Positions 1,653 to 64,000 of a stretch of DNA of 64,000 nt are shown here, piece by piece (position 1 is the first letter of the stretch; each line of letters starts with the position of its first letter). This DNA is from Verrucomicrobiota bacterium (GTDB lineage Bacteria; Verrucomicrobiota; Verrucomicrobiia; Limisphaerales; DSYF01), in NCBI GenBank assembly GCA_025457615.1, contig JALOTZ010000014.1, positions 1-64,000 on the forward strand, in the 5' to 3' direction. The translations under genes and the position numbers were made by a program. The notes under the pieces are model-generated. The model did no database searches and was not told the origin of the DNA. It saw only the letters and a list, made by a program, of their open reading frames with translations.

Positions 1653-3104
1653 ATGAAAACTCATCCTATGAACCTGCCGTTCCGGAGCGCGGGTCTGCGA
1701 CCCGCAGCGGCTGCGCCACGCTGGGCGTCCGCAAAAGTTCACTCACCCATTCGCCCGGCGAGGCGGCTGCGGCTCAGCGAGCCGCGCTCCGCCTCACGCC
1801 TCCATCTCCTGGCCGGGCTCGCGTTGAGCGCGCTGGGCCTTTCCGGAGTCCACGCGGGCGCCGGCGGCTGGTCGCTTGCCACCAACCTCACACTGAAGGC
1901 CGATGTGGCACTCAAGGAGACCTACGACAGCAATGTGTATTTGCAGGACGAGGAGCCGAACCGGGCTGTGGTGCCGCAGGCGGTGTCACCTTTCGTGGAA
2001 TCCTTCGTCACCTCGTTCACCCCGCGGCTATCGCTGGATTGCAGGCCGGCGGACGCCTTCCACGCCACGCTCAGCTATGCCCCCGAGGTGGTGTTCTTCC
2101 ATTCAGCATCCTCAGAGGACCACGTGGCCCATCGCGGCACCCTGAACCTCGGCGGCCAGATCGAGAAGGTCCGGTGGGACTTCCCCAACACCCTCAACAT
2201 CGTCCAGGGCAGCCGCGAGGGACTCTACTTCGGCGGGGACCCCCTGGCCCCGCCCCCCACAGGCGGCAATGCGCCGGCGATTGGCGGGGTCCCCATTCGC
2301 GACCGCCGCGCCCAACTGGTGTATCGCTGCGCCCCGCGCGTGACCGTGCCGCTGGGACGCTGGTTCGTGCGCCCCGCGCTCTCGGGTTATCTGCACGACT
2401 TCCAGACCGAACAAAAGGACACCACCATCGCCGCCAACCGCGGCTACGAGAACTACGTGGACCGGCGCGAACTCAATGCGGGGGCCGACCTTGGAATGGA
2501 TGTGGGGCGAGGGACGCGAGCCTTCGTCGGCTATCGTTACGGACAGGAGATTGAGGGGGACCTGGTGGGCTCCCCCTACCATTACGACACCGAGTATCAC
2601 CGCCCGACGTTCGGCCTGGAAGGCCAGCCGTTCCGGTGGGTGAAGGCCAACCTCAGCGTGGGCCCGGACATCCACCACACCATTCACAACCCCGCGCCGG
2701 GATTCGAGCCCAACTACACCACGGTGTGGGCCGATGCCGTGCTGACCCTGCTGCCCACCACCAACGACACCCTCACGCTGACGTGGAAGCAGAACACCCA
2801 ACCCGCCTTCGCCAGCACCTCGGTTTACGATGACATCGTCTATGACTTCGCCGGACGCCATGTCTTCAATCCACACTGGTCGGTGGGGGCCGCGTTCCGC
2901 ATCTACATCGGCGACTGGTTCGCGCCGGTGGACCGCACGGACTGGATCTACACGCCCAGCGTCACGGTGGGCTATGTGCACGACCGGCATTGGGCGGCGG
3001 ACCTGGGTTACTCCTACGACTGGGTGGATAGCAAAGTCCCCGATACCGACGGCCGCGAATTCACCCGCCACCTGGTGTGGCTGTCAGTGAAATACGCGTT
3101 CTAA
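1653..3104 (+). CDS. Putative outer-membrane beta-barrel protein
   Basis: Within ORF 1599..3104; hydrophobic signal segment LHLLAGLALSALGLSGVHA; alternating aromatic strands; C-terminal Phe (WLSVKYAF). N-terminal region is encoded by a palindromic repeat; start codon uncertain. Confidence 0.7.
   Translation: MKTHPMNLPFRSAGLRPAAAAPRWASAKVHSPIRPARRLRLSEPRSASRLHLLAGLALSALGLSGVHAGAGGWSLATNLTLKADVALKETYDSNVYLQDEEPNRAVVPQAVSPFVESFVTSFTPRLSLDCRPADAFHATLSYAPEVVFFHSASSEDHVAHRGTLNLGGQIEKVRWDFPNTLNIVQGSREGLYFGGDPLAPPPTGGNAPAIGGVPIRDRRAQLVYRCAPRVTVPLGRWFVRPALSGYLHDFQTEQKDTTIAANRGYENYVDRRELNAGADLGMDVGRGTRAFVGYRYGQEIEGDLVGSPYHYDTEYHRPTFGLEGQPFRWVKANLSVGPDIHHTIHNPAPGFEPNYTTVWADAVLTLLPTTNDTLTLTWKQNTQPAFASTSVYDDIVYDFAGRHVFNPHWSVGAAFRIYIGDWFAPVDRTDWIYTPSVTVGYVHDRHWAADLGYSYDWVDSKVPDTDGREFTRHLVWLSVKYAF
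1685..1790. repeat. Bipartite hairpin repeat, type A copy 1 (about 106 bp)
   Basis: Ends ggagcgcggg...gccgcgctcc are inverted; internal GGGTCTGCGACCC and GGCTCAGCGAGCC palindromes; matches 63761-63863. Confidence 0.75.
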
Positions 3105-10626: not shown

Positions 10627-10734
10627 GGACCGCGAGTCCGCGACTCGCAGCGGCCACGCTGCTCCACACGCCCACAACCCACTCGCAGCCCACCCGCACC
10701 CGCGCAGCCGCTGCGGCTCACGGAGCCGCGCCCC
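10627..10734. repeat. Bipartite hairpin repeat, type C copy 1 (108 bp)
   Basis: ggaccgcgagtccgcgactcgcagc ... gctgcggctcacggagccgcgcccc; same 108-bp length as 44268-44375 and 47487-47594; extra left module at 10741-10764. Confidence 0.85.
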
Positions 10735-10878
10735 AACCAAGGACCGCGAGTCCGCGACTCGCGGTTTCAGGATGGTGGAAACTGGCCCTCACCCATCCAT
10801 TCGGAGTTCCATGTTGACGTGGCGGAACCGCCTGTTGCGCTTGCCCAACGACCGGCTCGCGTCGCACGATGACCCCGC

Positions 10879-11568
10879 ATGAACGCCGCCGTGATCGTCG
10901 CCGCCGGAAAAGGCACCCGCATGGGACGCGGGGTGGACAAGTTGTTCCTCGAAGTGGCCGGCCGCCCCGTCGTCGCCCACACCTGGCAACGATTCGAGCA
11001 GGCGGATTGCATTGATCGGATCGTGCTGGTGGTGCGCGCGGACATGCAGGACGAATTTCTGCGGATGGCCGGGCAGTATCGCTACGTCAAACCGCATCGG
11101 ATCGTGGTGGGAGGCCCCGAACGGCAGGACTCGGTCTGGAACGGCCTCGAGGCGCTGGAGCCCGGCACGGACATCGTGGCCATCCAGGACGCCGCGCGGC
11201 CTTGCGTGACCCAGGCACTGATCGAAGCCACCATCCTCGCGGCCCGCGAGACCGGCGCCGCCGTCGCGGCCCAGCCGGTGGTGGATACCATCAAGGAATC
11301 CTCGGATGGCCGGCTGATCGAGCGCACGGTTCCGCGCCACCGCCTTTGGGCCGTGCAAACCCCGCAGACGTTTCAGGTCCCGGTGATCCGCCGGGCCCTA
11401 CAGGCGGCACGCGAGCGGGGACTTTCGCTGACCGACGACACAGCAGCCTGCGAATTGATCGGTCAGTCCGTGCGCCTGGTTGTCCGCAACGATCCCAATC
11501 CCAAGGTCACCCTTCCGGCCGACCTGCCGTACGTAGAATCTCTCCTGCGTCAAACCATCCGCCCGTGA
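10879..11568 (+). CDS. ispD: 2-C-methyl-D-erythritol 4-phosphate cytidylyltransferase
   Basis: VIVAAGKGTRMG, QDAARPCV and TDDTAACE motifs. Confidence 0.95.
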   Translation: MNAAVIVAAGKGTRMGRGVDKLFLEVAGRPVVAHTWQRFEQADCIDRIVLVVRADMQDEFLRMAGQYRYVKPHRIVVGGPERQDSVWNGLEALEPGTDIVAIQDAARPCVTQALIEATILAARETGAAVAAQPVVDTIKESSDGRLIERTVPRHRLWAVQTPQTFQVPVIRRALQAARERGLSLTDDTAACELIGQSVRLVVRNDPNPKVTLPADLPYVESLLRQTIRP

Positions 11569-11578
11569 CGCTCCGTCG

Positions 11579-11719
11579 GCCATTCTCATTTTGGCCCGGA
11601 GATACGGCTCCCTGAGCCGCAGCATCCCCGCAACGGAAGGCCGTTTTCAATCTTCCAGTGGCCATGTTCCAGGCGAAGCGGCTGCGGGTCGCGGACCCGC
11701 GCTCCCAAATGAGAATGGC
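11579..11719. repeat. Bipartite hairpin repeat with terminal inverted repeats, type B copy 1
   Basis: TIRs gccattctcattttgg / cccaaatgagaatggc; strongly similar to 18423-18556. Confidence 0.85.
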
Positions 11720-11784
11720 TGGACGCTCCGTTCCGGCTCCTTGCCAAGCCCCCGGGCGCCCCTTATGGTCTGCCAGCCGAACCT

Positions 11785-17531: not shown

Positions 17532-18017
17532 TTAGTTAAGGGCTCGGTAATTGCGGGGTCTTGCCTTCCAGTATCTGCCGCGATGTTGGACTTCAACGAA
17601 CTGACGGCGTGGGCGGGTGAGCAACGGATACTGTTTGGGCCGACGCTTGAGCGCCCGGGGTTCGCGCCGGTGGGGTCGCAAGGGAACCGGGTCGCGCCCC
17701 AGAGTGAGTAGTAGATCGTTCCAGAGCTGACGGCGCAGTTGACGTGAGCGCGCCCGGCCGATGGCCGCGCTGTATTGGCGGAGCGCATCCAACGTGCCTT
17801 TGAAACTGAGTCGATCCAAGCTGGCATCGTGCAGCAGCGCCGCCTCGGCCATCACGCAGCGCACCAGGTTGTGAGCAATGAAGTAGGCCAACACTTCCTT
17901 GCGTGCCATTGCCGGAGACTGACAGCGCAACAACTCCATGCCCATCGTGGTCTTCACATCGCGCAGACACAGTTCCAAACGCCAACGTCGGCCATAAAGT
18001 GCGGCCAGTTCTTCTTC
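17532..18017 (-). pseudogene. IS4-type transposase, C-terminal DDE fragment
   Basis: LYGRRWRLELCLRDVKTTMGMELLRCQSPAMARKEVLAYFIAHNLVRCVM; N-terminal catalytic region missing. Confidence 0.85.
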
Positions 18018-18371
18018 GTCGTCCGAATTACGGTCCAAAGGGAGGCGCTGAAGGATTTCGGCGGAGAAGGCGCGATAGCCGGTGTGGTATTCCGATAGCG
18101 TGGCGCCGAGAGCCAGGTTTTCGGTGAGGGTGAGGAACCGGTTGGAAACGTATTTCCACCAGGGCATGCCGCCTTTGAGCGCGTAGCCACCGAGAATGCG
18201 TGCCCCGATCACGCAAGGGTGGAGGCGGTTGACAATCATGGAGGCCATGGCCGGAATGAGGGCGGGGATATACTGGTAATCGGGGTGGATCATCACCACG
18301 ACGTCCGCGCGTGCCTCGATGGCGAGACGGCAGCAGGTTTTTTGGTTGGCACCGGTCATGGTCACGGTCAT
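18018..18371 (-). pseudogene. GT2 (dolichol-P-mannose synthase-like) glycosyltransferase, internal fragment fused to transposase
   Basis: NQKTCCRLAIEARADVVVMIHPDYQYIPALIPAMASMI...SEYHTGYRAFSAEILQRLPLDRNSDD; truncated at both ends, same ORF continues into the transposase. Confidence 0.82.
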
Positions 18372-18422
18372 CGGTCAAGGGCCAACAGCGGCCCCGCGGG
18401 TGGTCTGCGTTTCTCAGCAGCA

Positions 18423-18556
18423 ATTCTCATTTTGGCCCGGAGCGCGGCCCGATGAGCTGCAGCGCCCCCGCCACGGAAGGCGGTTCTCAATCTTCCAGTG
18501 GCCTGATTCCAAGCGAAGCGGCTGCGGGTCGCGGACCCGCGCTCCAAAATGAGAAT
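18423..18556. repeat. Bipartite hairpin repeat with TIRs, type B copy 2
   Basis: attctcattttgg ... ccaaaatgagaat; matches 11579-11719. Confidence 0.85.
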
Positions 18557-18615
18557 GACTGGTTTCTTGGCGCTTCCCGTTGACAAGCCCTTGGACGTTT
18601 GGCCACTCTGCACGC

Positions 18616-34981: not shown

Positions 34982-36706
34982 TCAAATCCCCTCGCCCCGC
35001 GCGCGATCCACATCCGCAGCCTTGGGCGGCGCCTCGGCGACGTGTTCCAGCGGGTGCTCCTCCTTGTGCCACTCCTCGGACACACGCCCATCCCACCATG
35101 CCCAGTTCATCGGGTAGGTTCCCGGGGCGAAGATGACGTGGTAGAAATGCCAGACCACGATGGCCAGGCAGGCCAGGATGGCCTCGTAGTAGTGAATCGT
35201 GGTGGCCACTTCCACCACCCACCGCGGCAGAAACTGCGTCACATCCACCTTCAGCCAGATGGCCAGACCCGTGACCCCCATGATCACCGTCCCCCACACC
35301 ACCGCCCAGTACTCGAACTTCTCCACGTAACCGAACCGTCCGAACCGGGGCCGCTCGGACCTGTGTCCGGTGAGGTAACGCAGATTCAAGACGATGTCAG
35401 TCACATCCCGCTTCCGAAACCACAGGTCCCGGACCAACCGCCGTCCCTCCCGGAACAGGGCGATGTAAACCAGATGCCACACACCCAGCGCGATCAACAC
35501 CACGCCGGCGCCGCGATGCACCCAACGGCGTACATTCTCGTCATTGGCAAACAGCCAGGCCACCCAGGTGTCCGGGTATTTCAAGGCAAACCCACTCAGC
35601 GCCAGCAGAATGAAGGTGCTCAGCAGGATGAAATGCTGCGCCCGCTGATGCCGATCCATCCGCATCACGGTCGGACCCCGCGTGCCGCGGGCCAGCAGCG
35701 CGCTGCGCATGAGGGAAAGCAGGTTGTGAAGAGAGAGCGCGCCCACCACCCCGAAGATCAGCAAGAGGTAGATCCGCCGCACCCACCAGTTCACCTGCTC
35801 CCCCAGGTTTCCCTCCGGCACGCCCTTCAAATGCACCCGGCCCAGTGCGAACTGCTCGGAAATGCCCGGATGACACTGCCCACAGGTGGTCACCAGATGC
35901 GCCGGGTGCACCGAGGACTCCGGATCGGTCGAGGGCAGGATCCGGTGGTAACCGTGGCAACTGGCGCAGTTGGCCGCCGTGGCTGACCCGCCTTGAATCG
36001 CCAGCCCGTGATAGCTTTCAAAAAAGGTCTTCACCCGGTCCGCCGGGAGTCCAAACTTCGTGTTCAACCGCTCGGACGCATGGCACTTGCTGCAGACCTG
36101 TTCCGCCACCTGCTCGCCGGGCGCTCCGCGCAGGGCCTGAATGGAATGTTCCATGTGGCAGTCCGTGCAGGTGGGCGCCTCCCGCACCCCCTGCGCGGCC
36201 GCCTTGCCGTGGACGCTCCCCGCCACGTCCTCCGCCTCGGTGGGATGACAATCGCCGCACGTTGCCGCCTGCCTCGAGAAATGCAGCCGCGAGCGCGGAT
36301 CGGTCGAGGGCAGTACGTCGTGATGGTGGTGGCAATCCCGGCAACCCGGCGCCGCCGGGTCGCCCGACTCCGCAGCCTGGCCGTGAACGCTCAGACCGTA
36401 GGAGAGCGCCTGCCGCTCATGGCACGCCTCGCACCGGACCGGCTTGGGCTTCACCTGGTCGTCCGGATGCTCCCACGCGATGTCCGCGTGGCAAGCGCTG
36501 CAGGTGTTGGTCGAGTGGCTGGACGCGGCAAGCACTGAAGCGTCCACATACAGCGACCGCTCGCGCCCGTCCTCCGTTGTAGCGGTCAGATCCTGGTCCG
36601 CATGACATTCCAGGCATTTGTCGTCCGGAACCGGCTCGGCGGCGACGGTGGAAAGGCAACTGGCGCCGGCCGCCCCCCAAAGCATCAGCCCGAGACAGAA
36701 CGACAT
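34982..36706 (-). CDS. Multihaem c-type cytochrome (9 CXXCH) fused to cytochrome b-like membrane domain
   Basis: 9 CXXCH motifs counted, then a multi-TM His-containing domain; start placed at MSFCLGLMLWGAAG inside ORF 34982..37009. Confidence 0.85.
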   Translation of the reverse strand: MSFCLGLMLWGAAGASCLSTVAAEPVPDDKCLECHADQDLTATTEDGRERSLYVDASVLAASSHSTNTCSACHADIAWEHPDDQVKPKPVRCEACHERQALSYGLSVHGQAAESGDPAAPGCRDCHHHHDVLPSTDPRSRLHFSRQAATCGDCHPTEAEDVAGSVHGKAAAQGVREAPTCTDCHMEHSIQALRGAPGEQVAEQVCSKCHASERLNTKFGLPADRVKTFFESYHGLAIQGGSATAANCASCHGYHRILPSTDPESSVHPAHLVTTCGQCHPGISEQFALGRVHLKGVPEGNLGEQVNWWVRRIYLLLIFGVVGALSLHNLLSLMRSALLARGTRGPTVMRMDRHQRAQHFILLSTFILLALSGFALKYPDTWVAWLFANDENVRRWVHRGAGVVLIALGVWHLVYIALFREGRRLVRDLWFRKRDVTDIVLNLRYLTGHRSERPRFGRFGYVEKFEYWAVVWGTVIMGVTGLAIWLKVDVTQFLPRWVVEVATTIHYYEAILACLAIVVWHFYHVIFAPGTYPMNWAWWDGRVSEEWHKEEHPLEHVAEAPPKAADVDRARGEGI

Positions 36707-36840: not shown

Positions 36841-39027
36841 TCAATGCACCAGGCGCGTGGCCATGGCGTAAACAATCAACAGCAGCAGCACCAATCCCAT
36901 GCCGAAGAAGATGAATCCCACCGGCCGCGCAATCCGCTTCCACCGCAGCCATTCGTCCTTGACCCGATACTTGTCCAGCCGTCCGCTCTGGATCAACCGG
37001 TCGTACCACCGCCGCCGTTCGTGCAGCATTTCGGTCTTCGAGACGCGACCGGAGAAAATCACCGTGTCCATCGGGAACTTCTCGAGCCGGAAGTGCGTGT
37101 TGAAAAAGTGCACCGTAAAGATGAATCCCGCCGCCAGCAGTGCTTCATCCGAGTGCACAATCAACGCGACGTTGATGATCCAGCCCGGCAGGAAACGGGT
37201 GAAGAACTGCGGGAACCACATGATCAGGCCGGACGCCCCGATGATGAACACGCCCCAGAAGACGGCGAAGTAGTCGAACCGCTCCCAATACGTCCAGCGA
37301 TCAAACTGCGGCTTCTCGCCCTTGCCAAAGAACCACTTCTGGTGCGCCCAGAAATCCACCACGTCCCGGTGCGTCGGGATCATCGAGTCCGGACCGAACA
37401 CAACGCCGATCAATCGCCGGAACTTCCACCGTCCGGTTTGCGGATCGCGGACTGCGTGCCGGTTCTTCCAGGCCGAAACCACCAGGGCGCACAGGTGCAG
37501 CCCGAAGTAGAGGAACGTCACGATCGCCCCGAATCGGTGCATGGTGCGGGCCGCCTCCGCCCCGCCCAGGAACCCGAACATCACCCGGGCCCACTCGGTG
37601 TAGTAGAACTTGAGCGGCATGCCGGTGATCACCAGCAGCAGGAAACTGGTCACCACCAGGAAATGCAGGAACCGCTCGAAGGGCGAGAACCGCGTGAACC
37701 ATTCGTCATCCACCTGCGCGTTCACCTTGGCTTCCCGGAACTTCTTCGAGTCGGAGACGTAGAGATAGATCGAACGCCCCAGCCACAGCAACGTGTGCCC
37801 GCCGAAAAAGGCAAACACCCCCAGCAGCAGCACGGTCATGAACACAAAGGTCGCGTGCAAAACGGGATACTTCTGGCCATCCAGCGGATTCGCGTGCGGC
37901 TGGTACTGGGTGAACCCGACCGTGCTGTGCTCGTGACACTGACCGCAGGTGGCCACGATGTTCTGCGAGGACAGCCGGGAGTCCGGACTGGTGGGAGGCA
38001 GCACGTCGTGATGGCCGTGGCAATCGTAACAAGCCGCCACTTCGGATGCCTGGTTGGGTCGGCCCAGCGCCATGGCCTTCCCGTGGTACGTGTCCTGGTA
38101 ATGCAGGAGGCTGTCCTCATGGCACTTGCCGCAGCGCTGATCGCTCACCTGCTTGAAATGCCCGTTCCGGGGCTGCTCGATCTCGTGCGCCGTGTGGCAA
38201 TCCGTGCACACCGGCCCGCGCGCATCCCCCCGGTTCAACAAGGCGCCGTGGACACTCCGATTGTAAATCTGTTCGACGCCCAGGTGGCACTTGCCGCACG
38301 TGTCCGCCACGTGCGTCTTGTGGATGGACGCGCTGCGATCCACGCTGCGCTTGATGTCATGCGCGCCGTGGCAGTCGCCGCAGGATGGCGCCACGATCAA
38401 TCCCTTCCCCGACAGCGCCTTGCCATGGATGCTTTCGTGGAACAGCGAGCTTACGCCGGGGTACTTGATCCGGTATTCCTCGGTCAGACCGACGTTGCTG
38501 TGGCACCGGGCGCAGGTGCGCTCGAGGTTCATCTTGAACGTGGGCGAGTTCGGGTTGCGCGCGGAGAGGATGTCGTGCTTGCCATGGCAGTCCGCGCAGG
38601 ATGCCGCCTCCGAGGCGCCCATCGCACGGCTCACCCCGTGAATGCTGGTGGCGTAGATCCCCGCTTCTTCGGCATGGCAGGACGCGCAATCCACAGGCTT
38701 GGCCGCCAGCCCGTCGTCCGGATGCTCCTCGGTCAGGTCCGAGTGGCAACTGGCGCAGGTGTTGGTGCGATGGACCGACGAGAGCAGGAGATCCTCGTGC
38801 ACCAGCAGACTCTTCACCGACCCATCCGGCAAATCCTTGGTGAGGTCCGCCATGGAATGGCATTCCAGGCACTTGTCATTCGGGACCGGCTCGGCGGCGC
38901 TGACCTGCCGTCCGGCGCACAGCACGAATACGCCGGCGCAAAGCAGGCTGAGACGCTCAACAACCCGCCAACGGACCCGCGATCGGCCCCGGGCACAGGC
39001 CGGGAGCAACATGGGATGGGTGTCCAT
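36841..39027 (-). CDS. Multihaem c-type cytochrome (11 CXXCH) fused to cytochrome b-like membrane domain
   Basis: 11 CXXCH motifs counted; AEPVPNDKCLECH opening is paralogous to AEPVPDDKCLECH in the neighbouring gene; start placed at MDTHPMLLP. Confidence 0.86.
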   Translation of the reverse strand: MDTHPMLLPACARGRSRVRWRVVERLSLLCAGVFVLCAGRQVSAAEPVPNDKCLECHSMADLTKDLPDGSVKSLLVHEDLLLSSVHRTNTCASCHSDLTEEHPDDGLAAKPVDCASCHAEEAGIYATSIHGVSRAMGASEAASCADCHGKHDILSARNPNSPTFKMNLERTCARCHSNVGLTEEYRIKYPGVSSLFHESIHGKALSGKGLIVAPSCGDCHGAHDIKRSVDRSASIHKTHVADTCGKCHLGVEQIYNRSVHGALLNRGDARGPVCTDCHTAHEIEQPRNGHFKQVSDQRCGKCHEDSLLHYQDTYHGKAMALGRPNQASEVAACYDCHGHHDVLPPTSPDSRLSSQNIVATCGQCHEHSTVGFTQYQPHANPLDGQKYPVLHATFVFMTVLLLGVFAFFGGHTLLWLGRSIYLYVSDSKKFREAKVNAQVDDEWFTRFSPFERFLHFLVVTSFLLLVITGMPLKFYYTEWARVMFGFLGGAEAARTMHRFGAIVTFLYFGLHLCALVVSAWKNRHAVRDPQTGRWKFRRLIGVVFGPDSMIPTHRDVVDFWAHQKWFFGKGEKPQFDRWTYWERFDYFAVFWGVFIIGASGLIMWFPQFFTRFLPGWIINVALIVHSDEALLAAGFIFTVHFFNTHFRLEKFPMDTVIFSGRVSKTEMLHERRRWYDRLIQSGRLDKYRVKDEWLRWKRIARPVGFIFFGMGLVLLLLIVYAMATRLVH

Positions 39028-44267: not shown

Positions 44268-44375
44268 GGACCGCGAGTCCGCGACTCGCAGCAGCACCAA
44301 AGCTCCCCGCGCCCACGTCCAGGGCCAGAACCTCCCACACCTGCGCTGCCGCTGCGGCTCACGGAGCCGCGCCCC
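44268..44375. repeat. Bipartite hairpin repeat, type C copy 2 (108 bp) plus extra left module 44376-44400
   Basis: Same end modules and same length as 10627-10734. Confidence 0.85.
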
Positions 44376-44458
44376 GGACCGCGAGTCCGCGACTCGCAGC
44401 ACTCACGCTGCTCCCGACGCACACGACCCGATCACCACCCACCCCGCCCTGATGACCT

Positions 44459-44533
44459 CGTAGCCGTGGACGTGGAGTCCGCGCAGCAACCAAGCCGTTC
44501 GAGATAGGCGCCGACTCACGTGCGGCGGCTACA
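44459..44533. repeat. Type D inverted repeat (gtagccg...cggctac)
   Basis: Ends gtagccgtggacg / gactcacgtgcggcggctac; related to 59761-59862. Confidence 0.65.
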
Positions 44534-47486: not shown

Positions 47487-47594
47487 GGACCGCGAGTCCG
47501 CGACTCGCAGCACTCACGAAGCTCCCCACGCCCACGCCCAGATTGCTGGCCTTGCACCCGGGCGCACCCGCTGCGGCTCACGGAGCCGCGCTCC
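47487..47594. repeat. Bipartite hairpin repeat, type C copy 3 (108 bp)
   Basis: ggaccgcgagtccgcgactcgcagc ... gctgcggctcacggagccgcgctcc. Confidence 0.85.
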
Positions 47595-56913: not shown

Positions 56914-57774
56914 TCAGAACTGCAGGGAGGAGTTGACCCGGGAACCATGAACGGCTTCGTGGCAACCGGCCGACCAGCAGGTTCCCCGTTGCAGTCGCAC
57001 CGTGTGGTTACCTCCGCCGATGTACACCTGCGGGCCGCGGCGCTCGGCCGGGTGGCATTGCAGACACAGATTCGCGTCCCGGATCGTCAGCATCTTGGCG
57101 TTGATGCTCCCGTGGGGATGATGGCAGATGCCGCAGCCCTCGCGCAGCGCCTCGTGCTCGAACACGTGCGGACCCCGCTGCGCCGGGTGACACTCCAGGC
57201 AACCGTCGTCCCTGTCCCGCAAAGCCGTGCCTCCTCCGACGAACGCCCGCCCCTTGTGCGGTGGATGACATTCGCTGCAGGTCATCCGCCCCTCGGGCAC
57301 CGGATGATGCGACGGCAGATTGAACTGGCCCCGCACATCGCCATGGCACTGATAACACACCTGCTCCGTCGCCCGCCCAGCAGGAACCAGCGGACGCGCC
57401 CCGTAATCGGCGGTTTCCGGGCGGCCGGCCGTGTAACTGAACGGCGGCTTCACATCGCCGCCGGATTCCGCGTGCAGACTGCCGGGGCCGTGGCAGGACT
57501 CGCACCCGATGTTGATGGCATTGGTGCCGGCGGCGATCAGCCGGGCGTGGCTGGCGGTGGCGAAATCCCGGACGATTTCCTCATGGCACGTCTCGCACTC
57601 GGAAGTGCCAATGTAGTCGGCGCCGGGCACCTGGGGGGGCACCACCACCGCGCGATTCACCGTGGTGCAGGAGATGGCCACCGCGACCACCAAGGCCAGC
57701 CCGACGGCCAAGGCCAGCATGCGGCCCCGCGACGGGGTGAGCGCCGACTGAAGCCATCCGTGCAAGCCTTCCAT
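56914..57774 (-). CDS. Octahaem c-type cytochrome lipoprotein (7 CXXCH + 1 CX4CH)
   Basis: Lipobox-like VAISC; CETCH, CESCH, CYQCH, CSECH, CLECH, CGICH, CLQCH, CWSAGCH; start placed at MEGLHGWLQ. Confidence 0.86.
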   Translation of the reverse strand: MEGLHGWLQSALTPSRGRMLALAVGLALVVAVAISCTTVNRAVVVPPQVPGADYIGTSECETCHEEIVRDFATASHARLIAAGTNAINIGCESCHGPGSLHAESGGDVKPPFSYTAGRPETADYGARPLVPAGRATEQVCYQCHGDVRGQFNLPSHHPVPEGRMTCSECHPPHKGRAFVGGGTALRDRDDGCLECHPAQRGPHVFEHEALREGCGICHHPHGSINAKMLTIRDANLCLQCHPAERRGPQVYIGGGNHTVRLQRGTCWSAGCHEAVHGSRVNSSLQF

Positions 57775-63499: not shown

Positions 63500-64000
63500 A
63501 TGGGGATTGGGAACTTCAAATGCCAGGTGTCGCATCCGCTCTTGGGCGCCACCTGCCTCTACGCGGGCGGGGTGCTGTTGGCCCACTGGAGCCAGTTCCA
63601 GGTCGCTTGGTTGCTCGTCCCTTTCCTCGCGCTGGCGCTCACCGCCCTGCTTCTGGGTCTGGTCCGGTCAGGGAAGCACCAAGCCGCGACCACCAACCCT
63701 CCCCCGGAACCGTCGGTCCCGGAGCACGGGTCCGTCCAGCCTCCGCAGTGGCTCTGGCACGGAGGACGGGCGACCCGCCGCGGCTGCGCCATGTCCGGCG
63801 ACCACCAAAGTTCGCTCACCCATGCGACCTTCGAGGCGGCTGCGGCTCAGGGAGCCGCGCTCCTCCAGCGCGCCAAACCAGGGATGCGCAATCTACCCGC
63901 CCCGCGCGGGTTGGGCGGCGCCTTCCTCCTGATCGCCGCCGGCTGGCTCAACCTCGCTGGACACACGCGGATCTGGTCCGATCACGACCTTCGCCGCTGC
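63500..64000 (+). CDS. comEC: ComEC/Rec2-like competence protein, 5' partial (runs off window)
   Basis: Open frame from ATG 63500 to window end, absent from the ORF track because it has no stop: MGIGNFKCQVSHPLLGATCLYAGGVLLAHW...AAGWLNLAGHTRIWSDHDLRRC, typical ComEC N-terminus. Confidence 0.68.
   Translation, partial: MGIGNFKCQVSHPLLGATCLYAGGVLLAHWSQFQVAWLLVPFLALALTALLLGLVRSGKHQAATTNPPPEPSVPEHGSVQPPQWLWHGGRATRRGCAMSGDHQSSLTHATFEAAAAQGAALLQRAKPGMRNLPAPRGLGGAFLLIAAGWLNLAGHTRIWSDHDLRRC
63761..63863. repeat. Bipartite hairpin repeat, type A copy 2 (about 103 bp), inside comEC frame
   Basis: Shares ggctgcgcca, aagttcnctcaccca and gaggcggctgcggctcagsgagccgcgctcc with 1685-1790. Confidence 0.75.

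Follow-up and report, generated by a model that had tools for sequence, protein, structure and literature searches.

REP doublets with a GGA[G/C] foot in Limisphaerales genomes, and a subset enclosed in a MITE-like shell

The closest described counterparts of the elements reported here are the REPINs of Pseudomonas fluorescens, inverted doublets of REP sequences with conserved ends and a less conserved spacer of maintained length. Common inter-REP spacings in strain SBW25 are 71 and 110 bp (Bertels and Rainey 2011; PMC3116915). Compensatory changes, clustering, intergenic location and RAYT genes near matching REPs further characterise that system (PMC3116915), and these properties recur in our elements, the last of them in related genomes. 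Described REPs carry the tags GTAG or CGTC (PMC3733652), or GT[AG]G, with a CnGA foot in class 3 repeats (PMC6006769). The elements also resemble these repeats in having a short hairpin with a conserved tetranucleotide foot, in forming dimers that include heterodimers, and in the location of some dimers within longer palindromes. REP dimers within palindromes were noted earlier, the palindromes being described as targets, and the TnpAREP of Escherichia coli has been reported to cut the GTAG foot (PMC3733652). In E. coli, REPINs persist in genomes without a RAYT (PMC8049555).

We analysed a window of 64,000 nucleotides from a Verrucomicrobiota bacterium (contig JALOTZ010000014.1). Unlike P. fluorescens REPINs, which have a GTAG foot, the elements found there have a GGA[G/C]C foot and arms that nearly always differ from each other (GTC versus CTC); they belong to another phylum, and the window's genome yielded no cognate RAYT. 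The 5' GT[AG]G foot tetranucleotide of the GTAG-tagged superfamily does not occur in them. The string GGAG is absent from the texts of PMC3733652 and PMC6006769, and we found no literature on Limisphaerales repeats or on a GGAG-tagged RAYT. The elements are very probably REPINs, that is, RAYT-mobilised REP doublets and non-autonomous miniature mobile elements, with one subset (type A) captured in a MITE. This REPIN class is new by its foot (GGA[G/C], against the described GTAG, CGTC and CnGA), its taxon and its near-fixed GTC/CTC heterodimer.

Anatomy and copy number of the elements

The copies in the window are intergenic, between domain-bearing open frames, and several lie just past stop codons. 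They and their parts are as follows.

1684..1790, + strand: free REPIN, type B, 107 bp
10627..10734, + strand: free REPIN, type C, 108 bp, between an ABC-2 permease gene and ispD
10627..10651, + strand: its left REP, with foot GGACC, stem GCGAGTC/GACTCGC and tail AGC
10710..10734, - strand: its right REP, inverted, with foot GGGGC, stem GCGGCTC/GAGCCGC and tail AGC
10741..10765, + strand: lone left REP arm, 6 bp past the 10627..10734 copy, the start of a truncated tandem unit
11577..11721, no strand assigned: type A element, a probable MITE shell (TIR CGGCCATTCTCATTTTGG / CCCAAATGAGAATGGCTG) with a REPIN body
11599..11705, - strand: REPIN body of this type A element, 107 bp
18418..18561, no strand assigned: type A element, a probable MITE shell (TIR CAGCAATTCTCATTTTGG / CCAAAATGAGAATGACTG), upstream of parB
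18439..18545, - strand: REPIN body of this type A element, 107 bp
44268..44375, + strand: free REPIN, type C, 108 bp, downstream of an fmt-like formyltransferase gene
44376..44487, + strand: second, partial REPIN copy abutting the previous one, with a decayed right end
47487..47594, + strand: free REPIN, type C, 108 bp, downstream of a bestrophin-like gene
63721..63863, + strand: REPIN of the 143-bp length class, with a type B-like middle and a decayed left arm

The copies at 10627-10734, 44268-44375 and 47487-47594 are exactly 108 bp each, as the first-pass annotation of this DNA had stated. All three have GCGAGTC-CGC-GACTCGC as their left hairpin and GCGGCTC-ACG-GAGCCGC as their right hairpin. 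The annotation had described these hairpins as two modules of a bipartite element; both are there, but they are a single motif in inverted orientation. Each end carries an inverted copy of the 25-bp REP unit GGA[G/C]C-GCGG-NNN-n3/4-NNN-CCGC-AGC, in which the GGA[G/C]C foot points outward, a 7-bp stem encloses a loop of 3-4 nt, and the AGC tail points inward. The left end reads GGACCGCGAGTCCGCGACTCGCAGC and the right end, once reverse-complemented, GGAGCGCGGCTCCGTGAGCCGCAGC (copy at 47487); the two show the same motif with a few differences. Since the ends are by inspection one motif inverted, the element consists of two inverted copies of one REP-like hairpin. Its arms are nearly always unlike, with GTC on the left and CTC on the right, which makes it a near-fixed heterodimer. 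The left module had further been proposed to read GAGTC in type C and GGGTC in types B and A. This holds for the three 108-bp copies but is not diagnostic, as many type C copies carry GGGTC. Between the hairpins the sequence drifts while its length stays near 58 nt, and the variable middle reported earlier indeed comprises three or more sequence groups (A, B and C) that are unlike one another but equal in length.

In the 3.33 Mb genome, the right-end core has 129 matches, compared with none for a reversed-pattern control, and a covariance model built from 53 copies retrieved 123 distinct loci. The claim of a fixed length, correct for the three 108-bp copies, does not extend to the whole genome, where length is quantised into classes of 107 bp (42 loci), 108 bp (30 loci; 72 loci are 107 or 108 bp) and 143 bp (10 loci), the remainder being mostly decayed. 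Doublets with a fixed core spacing of 77/78 dominate the population. Many copies stand in tandem with a linker of 6-7 bp, and copies are found on both strands. Most free type C copies share 72-85% identity with the query copy. No precise empty sites came to light for them, the relatives being too diverged or the contigs ending there.

The 143-bp class has an additional 36 bp and comprises 10 loci in all, including 63721-63863 in the window. At four loci (L009, L057, L061 and L063), REPINs abut a common flank resembling GGTTCATGGCCCCAACTC, with TGAACC opposite this flank, as if they lay inside a further repeat. Repeats of another kind occur in the window within long open frames (36418-36511 and 38673-38766; 36602-36644, 38857-38899 and 57187-57229) and, judged by inspection, may encode CxxCH-rich, multihaem cytochrome stretches.

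Stem covariation and distribution across the order

Across 53 copies of this genome, whose middles diverge, pairing in the two end hairpins reaches 97.6%. Both sides of the stem are changed in 12 cells, compared with 2.4 in shuffles, and ten of these 12 double changes represent one G-C to A-U exchange at a single pair in 10 of the 53 copies, the exchange that the first-pass annotation had noticed. Covariation inside this genome therefore supports structural constraint weakly, mainly via one pair. Between genera, the inner stem bases covary strongly. An alignment made up of the distinct examples among the matches listed and two own-genome stems, rather than a phylogenetic sample, contained 43 two-sided compensated cells at the inner stem pairs versus 17.5 when shuffled (score 0.388 versus 0.141; 0 of 500 shuffles). 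The pattern used to gather the cross-genus sites placed no constraint on the inner stem. The structural constraint on the palindrome that had been proposed is thus supported, weakly inside the genome and strongly between genera, and with the genome-wide covariance model run (123 loci), covariation was found rather than random divergence only.

Taken as single-stranded DNA, the 1684..1790 element forms one long hairpin from end to end (-39.5 kcal/mol, z -3.85). As a conserved structure uniting both arms, such a hairpin was rejected: it is 79% paired, and one of its pairs is mismatched in 53 of 53 copies.

The motif GGASCGCGG-N9/10-CCGCAGC was found in 63 of the 146 genomes and 47 of the 93 genera of the order (Limisphaerales-like Verrucomicrobiota), with near-zero controls, and is often paired at about 81-83 bp. 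Among the matches listed, Verrucomicrobiota make up the overwhelming majority of the named records with a related pattern; Limisphaerales, Pedosphaera and 'subdivision 3' are represented, and the name given to the order here rests on these records. The few matches in other phyla are single ones. The same-genus genome G001 has essentially no copies, in sharp contrast with the window's genome.

RAYT genes in relatives and the orphan status of the population

In G002, a genome of the same family, a Y1 transposase gene (L081) lies between two whole REPINs. Its protein scores 82.6 bits against the NCBIfam family REP_Tyr_transpos (NF047646; cut-off 80) and matches TnpAREP (PDB 4er8) at 1.1e-7 with the HxH motif aligned. 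On these sequence matches, L081 is classified as a RAYT, a Y1/HUH transposase of the REP-associated family. The profile of its subfamily has members in 66 of 146 genomes. Whole REPINs stand on both sides of the genes L081/L117, L122, L123, L125, L128 and L130, although one side of L128 is partly decayed, and REP arms adjoin the RAYT genes L129, L135 and L142. In the phylogenetic tree, every RAYT scored as GGA-REP-flanked falls within one clade (support 99/98), and the subclade L122/L129/L130 (100/100) is associated with GTC and CTC stems identical to those of the window. Some members of the 99/98 clade, such as L121, adjoin other hairpins; L124 and L086, just outside it, also have other hairpins beside them, with the GGAGC foot kept. 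RAYT presence and REP copies co-occur in a test that ignores phylogeny (Fisher p = 4e-8 for at least one copy and 4e-4 for at least ten copies), and six REP-rich genomes are without the RAYT subfamily (G012, G025, G057, G079, G106 and G144). In the named REP loci that the genome scan had yielded, tblastn found no RAYT genes. The free types B and C are REP doublets or BIMEs, as the first-pass annotation had anticipated, with relatives that flank RAYT genes in other genera. A candidate for the RAYT or transposase partner it had called for was found in relatives, flanked by REPINs, but no cognate one in the window's own genome.

At L135 (G071; 1185-2697), head-to-tail REP arrays with a 129-bp period lie on both sides of the RAYT, the arrangement elsewhere being inverted doublets. 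A Y1/RAYT-like transposase domain also sits in frame in two housekeeping proteins, within an alanyl-tRNA synthetase (L089:487-3351, G025; residues 339-454) and, at 479-556 of L076:70-2553 (G001), between helicase DEAD_2 and C-terminal domains. Many genomes of the order have similar long open frames with this domain.

If the elements behave as in the RAYT systems characterised so far, their hairpins would form in single-stranded DNA, where the HUH/Y1 transposase would recognise foot and stem and then cut, with GGA[G/C] standing in for the GTAG guide. The RAYT would then copy the whole doublet, in trans, to new intergenic sites. RAYTs of the 99/98 clade may be the enzymes that move GGA[G/C] REPINs, and may have been active in the window's genome in the past. 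The type A subset would have been taken up by a MITE to form its body and have spread by a second, DDE-type route.

Three Y1_Tnp hits were found in the window's own genome, none of them with GGA[G/C] REPs within about 1.5 kb. L001 and L002 were rejected as partners, with no such REPs within 1.5 kb, as was L003/L127, the genome's own A1-type RAYT, which belongs to a remote clade and has a different repeat at its flanks. This other repeat family (GTAGCGCAGACAGTCTGTCTGC... and CCGCAGACTGCCAGTCTGCG, around G000:C68:37094-37798) possibly represents a second REP system. Because the assembly holds no RAYT that matches the clade, the REPIN population is probably orphaned: its members probably no longer move, or their RAYT sits in an assembly gap, the assembly being 94% complete in 96 contigs, with 5-6% missing. 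We lean towards a relic population, amplified by a RAYT that has since been lost and now drifting, with type A spread via its MITE shell. This is a status variant of the REPIN reading, compatible with it and no alternative to it. Besides the cognate RAYT not found in the assembly, it is consistent with the 72-85% identity of most free type C copies to the query while many shells keep perfect duplications, and REPINs are retained in E. coli genomes that lack a RAYT (PMC8049555). Conversely, the stems are still well paired despite the divergent middles, and a short-read assembly of this completeness and contig number would be likely to break at a RAYT gene placed between near-identical REPINs.

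The type A shell and its nested REPINs

Type A copies are enclosed by an 18-bp TIR (CAGCNATTCTCATTTTGG / CCAAAATGAGAATNGCTG) with target duplications of 9 bp, sometimes 10 bp, outside it, and for these REPINs the earlier description as MITE-like is apt. In the window, the shell 11577..11721 is bracketed by a 10-bp duplication (GACGCTCCGT at 11567-11576 and 11722-11731) and the shell 18418..18561 by an imperfect one (GTTTCTCAG / GTTTCTTGG, 7/9). Among 65 shell candidates drawn from nine genomes, 39 had a duplication of exactly 9 bp in which 8 or all 9 bases matched, compared with 0.9% in a swapped-flank control and 0-5 at other lengths. For 11577-11721, the orthologous ispD-S41 spacer in G001 is empty (score 170 with the shell and one duplication removed, versus 80); an empty orthologous site was shown for this shell-borne copy only. 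The shell TIR CAGCNATTCTCATTTTGG occurs in 18 of 146 genomes. With its 18-bp TIR, 9-bp target duplication and lack of coding capacity, the shell resembles the MITEs of DDE insertion sequences, and the TIR together with the constant length of the duplication indicates that it is probably a DDE-moved MITE. No autonomous IS with the shell TIR was found among 20 fetched TIR neighbourhoods. An open frame at 17532-18371 (- strand), which is separated by 46 bp from the shell 18418..18561, combines a weakly glycosyltransferase-like N-terminal part with an IS4-family transposase C-terminal end and may be a remnant of the transposase family that served the shell.

A DDE transposase is expected to leave a target duplication, and an HUH enzyme is not. 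At free REPINs (types B and C), no target duplications above shuffled flanks were found in a scan that took REPIN ends as boundaries and was blind to shell duplications, the shells being scanned at their own boundaries. This lack therefore fits an HUH enzyme and not a DDE enzyme. It would be very surprising if all types were ordinary MITEs, moved in trans by a DDE transposase with the element ends as its TIRs. By inspection, each end is indeed an imperfect inverted repeat of the other, and type A has outer TIRs with duplications of 9-10 bp, but these duplications sit at the outer CAGC.. TIR and not at the REP ends, and the free types have none above shuffled flanks. In addition, the REPs flank HUH RAYT genes, and each end on its own forms a covarying palindrome, a property not required of a DDE TIR.

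Functional RNA or terminator hairpins under selection, such as mRNA 3' ends or attenuators, would account for the intergenic sites, several just past stop codons, and for the conserved GC-rich stems, but are highly improbable given that no U-tract follows the stems (by inspection), that presence differs sharply between two same-genus genomes, that one orthologous site is empty, and that copies lie on both strands and in tandem arrays. None of the results favours an RNA role. The window has no Rfam match, a result with which such a role would be compatible; the near-absence in relatives argues against an essential one, and later co-option is possible.

For the type A REPINs, the contents of the shells differ among genomes. 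Unlike in DDE MITEs, the shell encloses as its body an entire second mobile element, namely a REPIN, and this body differs between genera. The bodies are of the GGAGC-GCGGCTG REPIN class in G006, GGAGC-GCCGGC and GGAGC-GCGGACT REPINs in G112, and GGAGC-GCCGGC REPINs in G133; G054 and G133 have GTAG-like hairpins, and G037, G064 and G098 unrelated sequence. As the spacer between TIR and REPIN differs among shells, these sequences suggest that the shell took up REPINs several times. That across the order a single MITE family (TIR CAGCNATTCTCATTTTGG, 9-bp duplication) repeatedly and independently took up complete REPINs of different classes, giving composites that a DDE transposase and a RAYT can each move, has in our judgement an even chance of being correct. 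The recurrent nesting of REPINs in a MITE is the novel part of the finding.

The GGA[G/C] class is large, has a RAYT clade to itself and stems that covary strongly, and so offers a natural series for studying how RAYTs recognise hairpins. The order has REP-rich genomes both with and without the RAYT subfamily, which makes it possible to test whether REPINs persist in its absence. Because of the 9-bp duplications, the enclosing palindrome is in this order a transposon end, and nesting could explain the earlier notes of REP dimers inside palindromes. It also suggests that the same miniature cargo can serve unrelated systems of transposition. If the repeated uptake is true, REPIN-in-MITE capture would be a general route for REPINs to outlive the loss of their RAYT.
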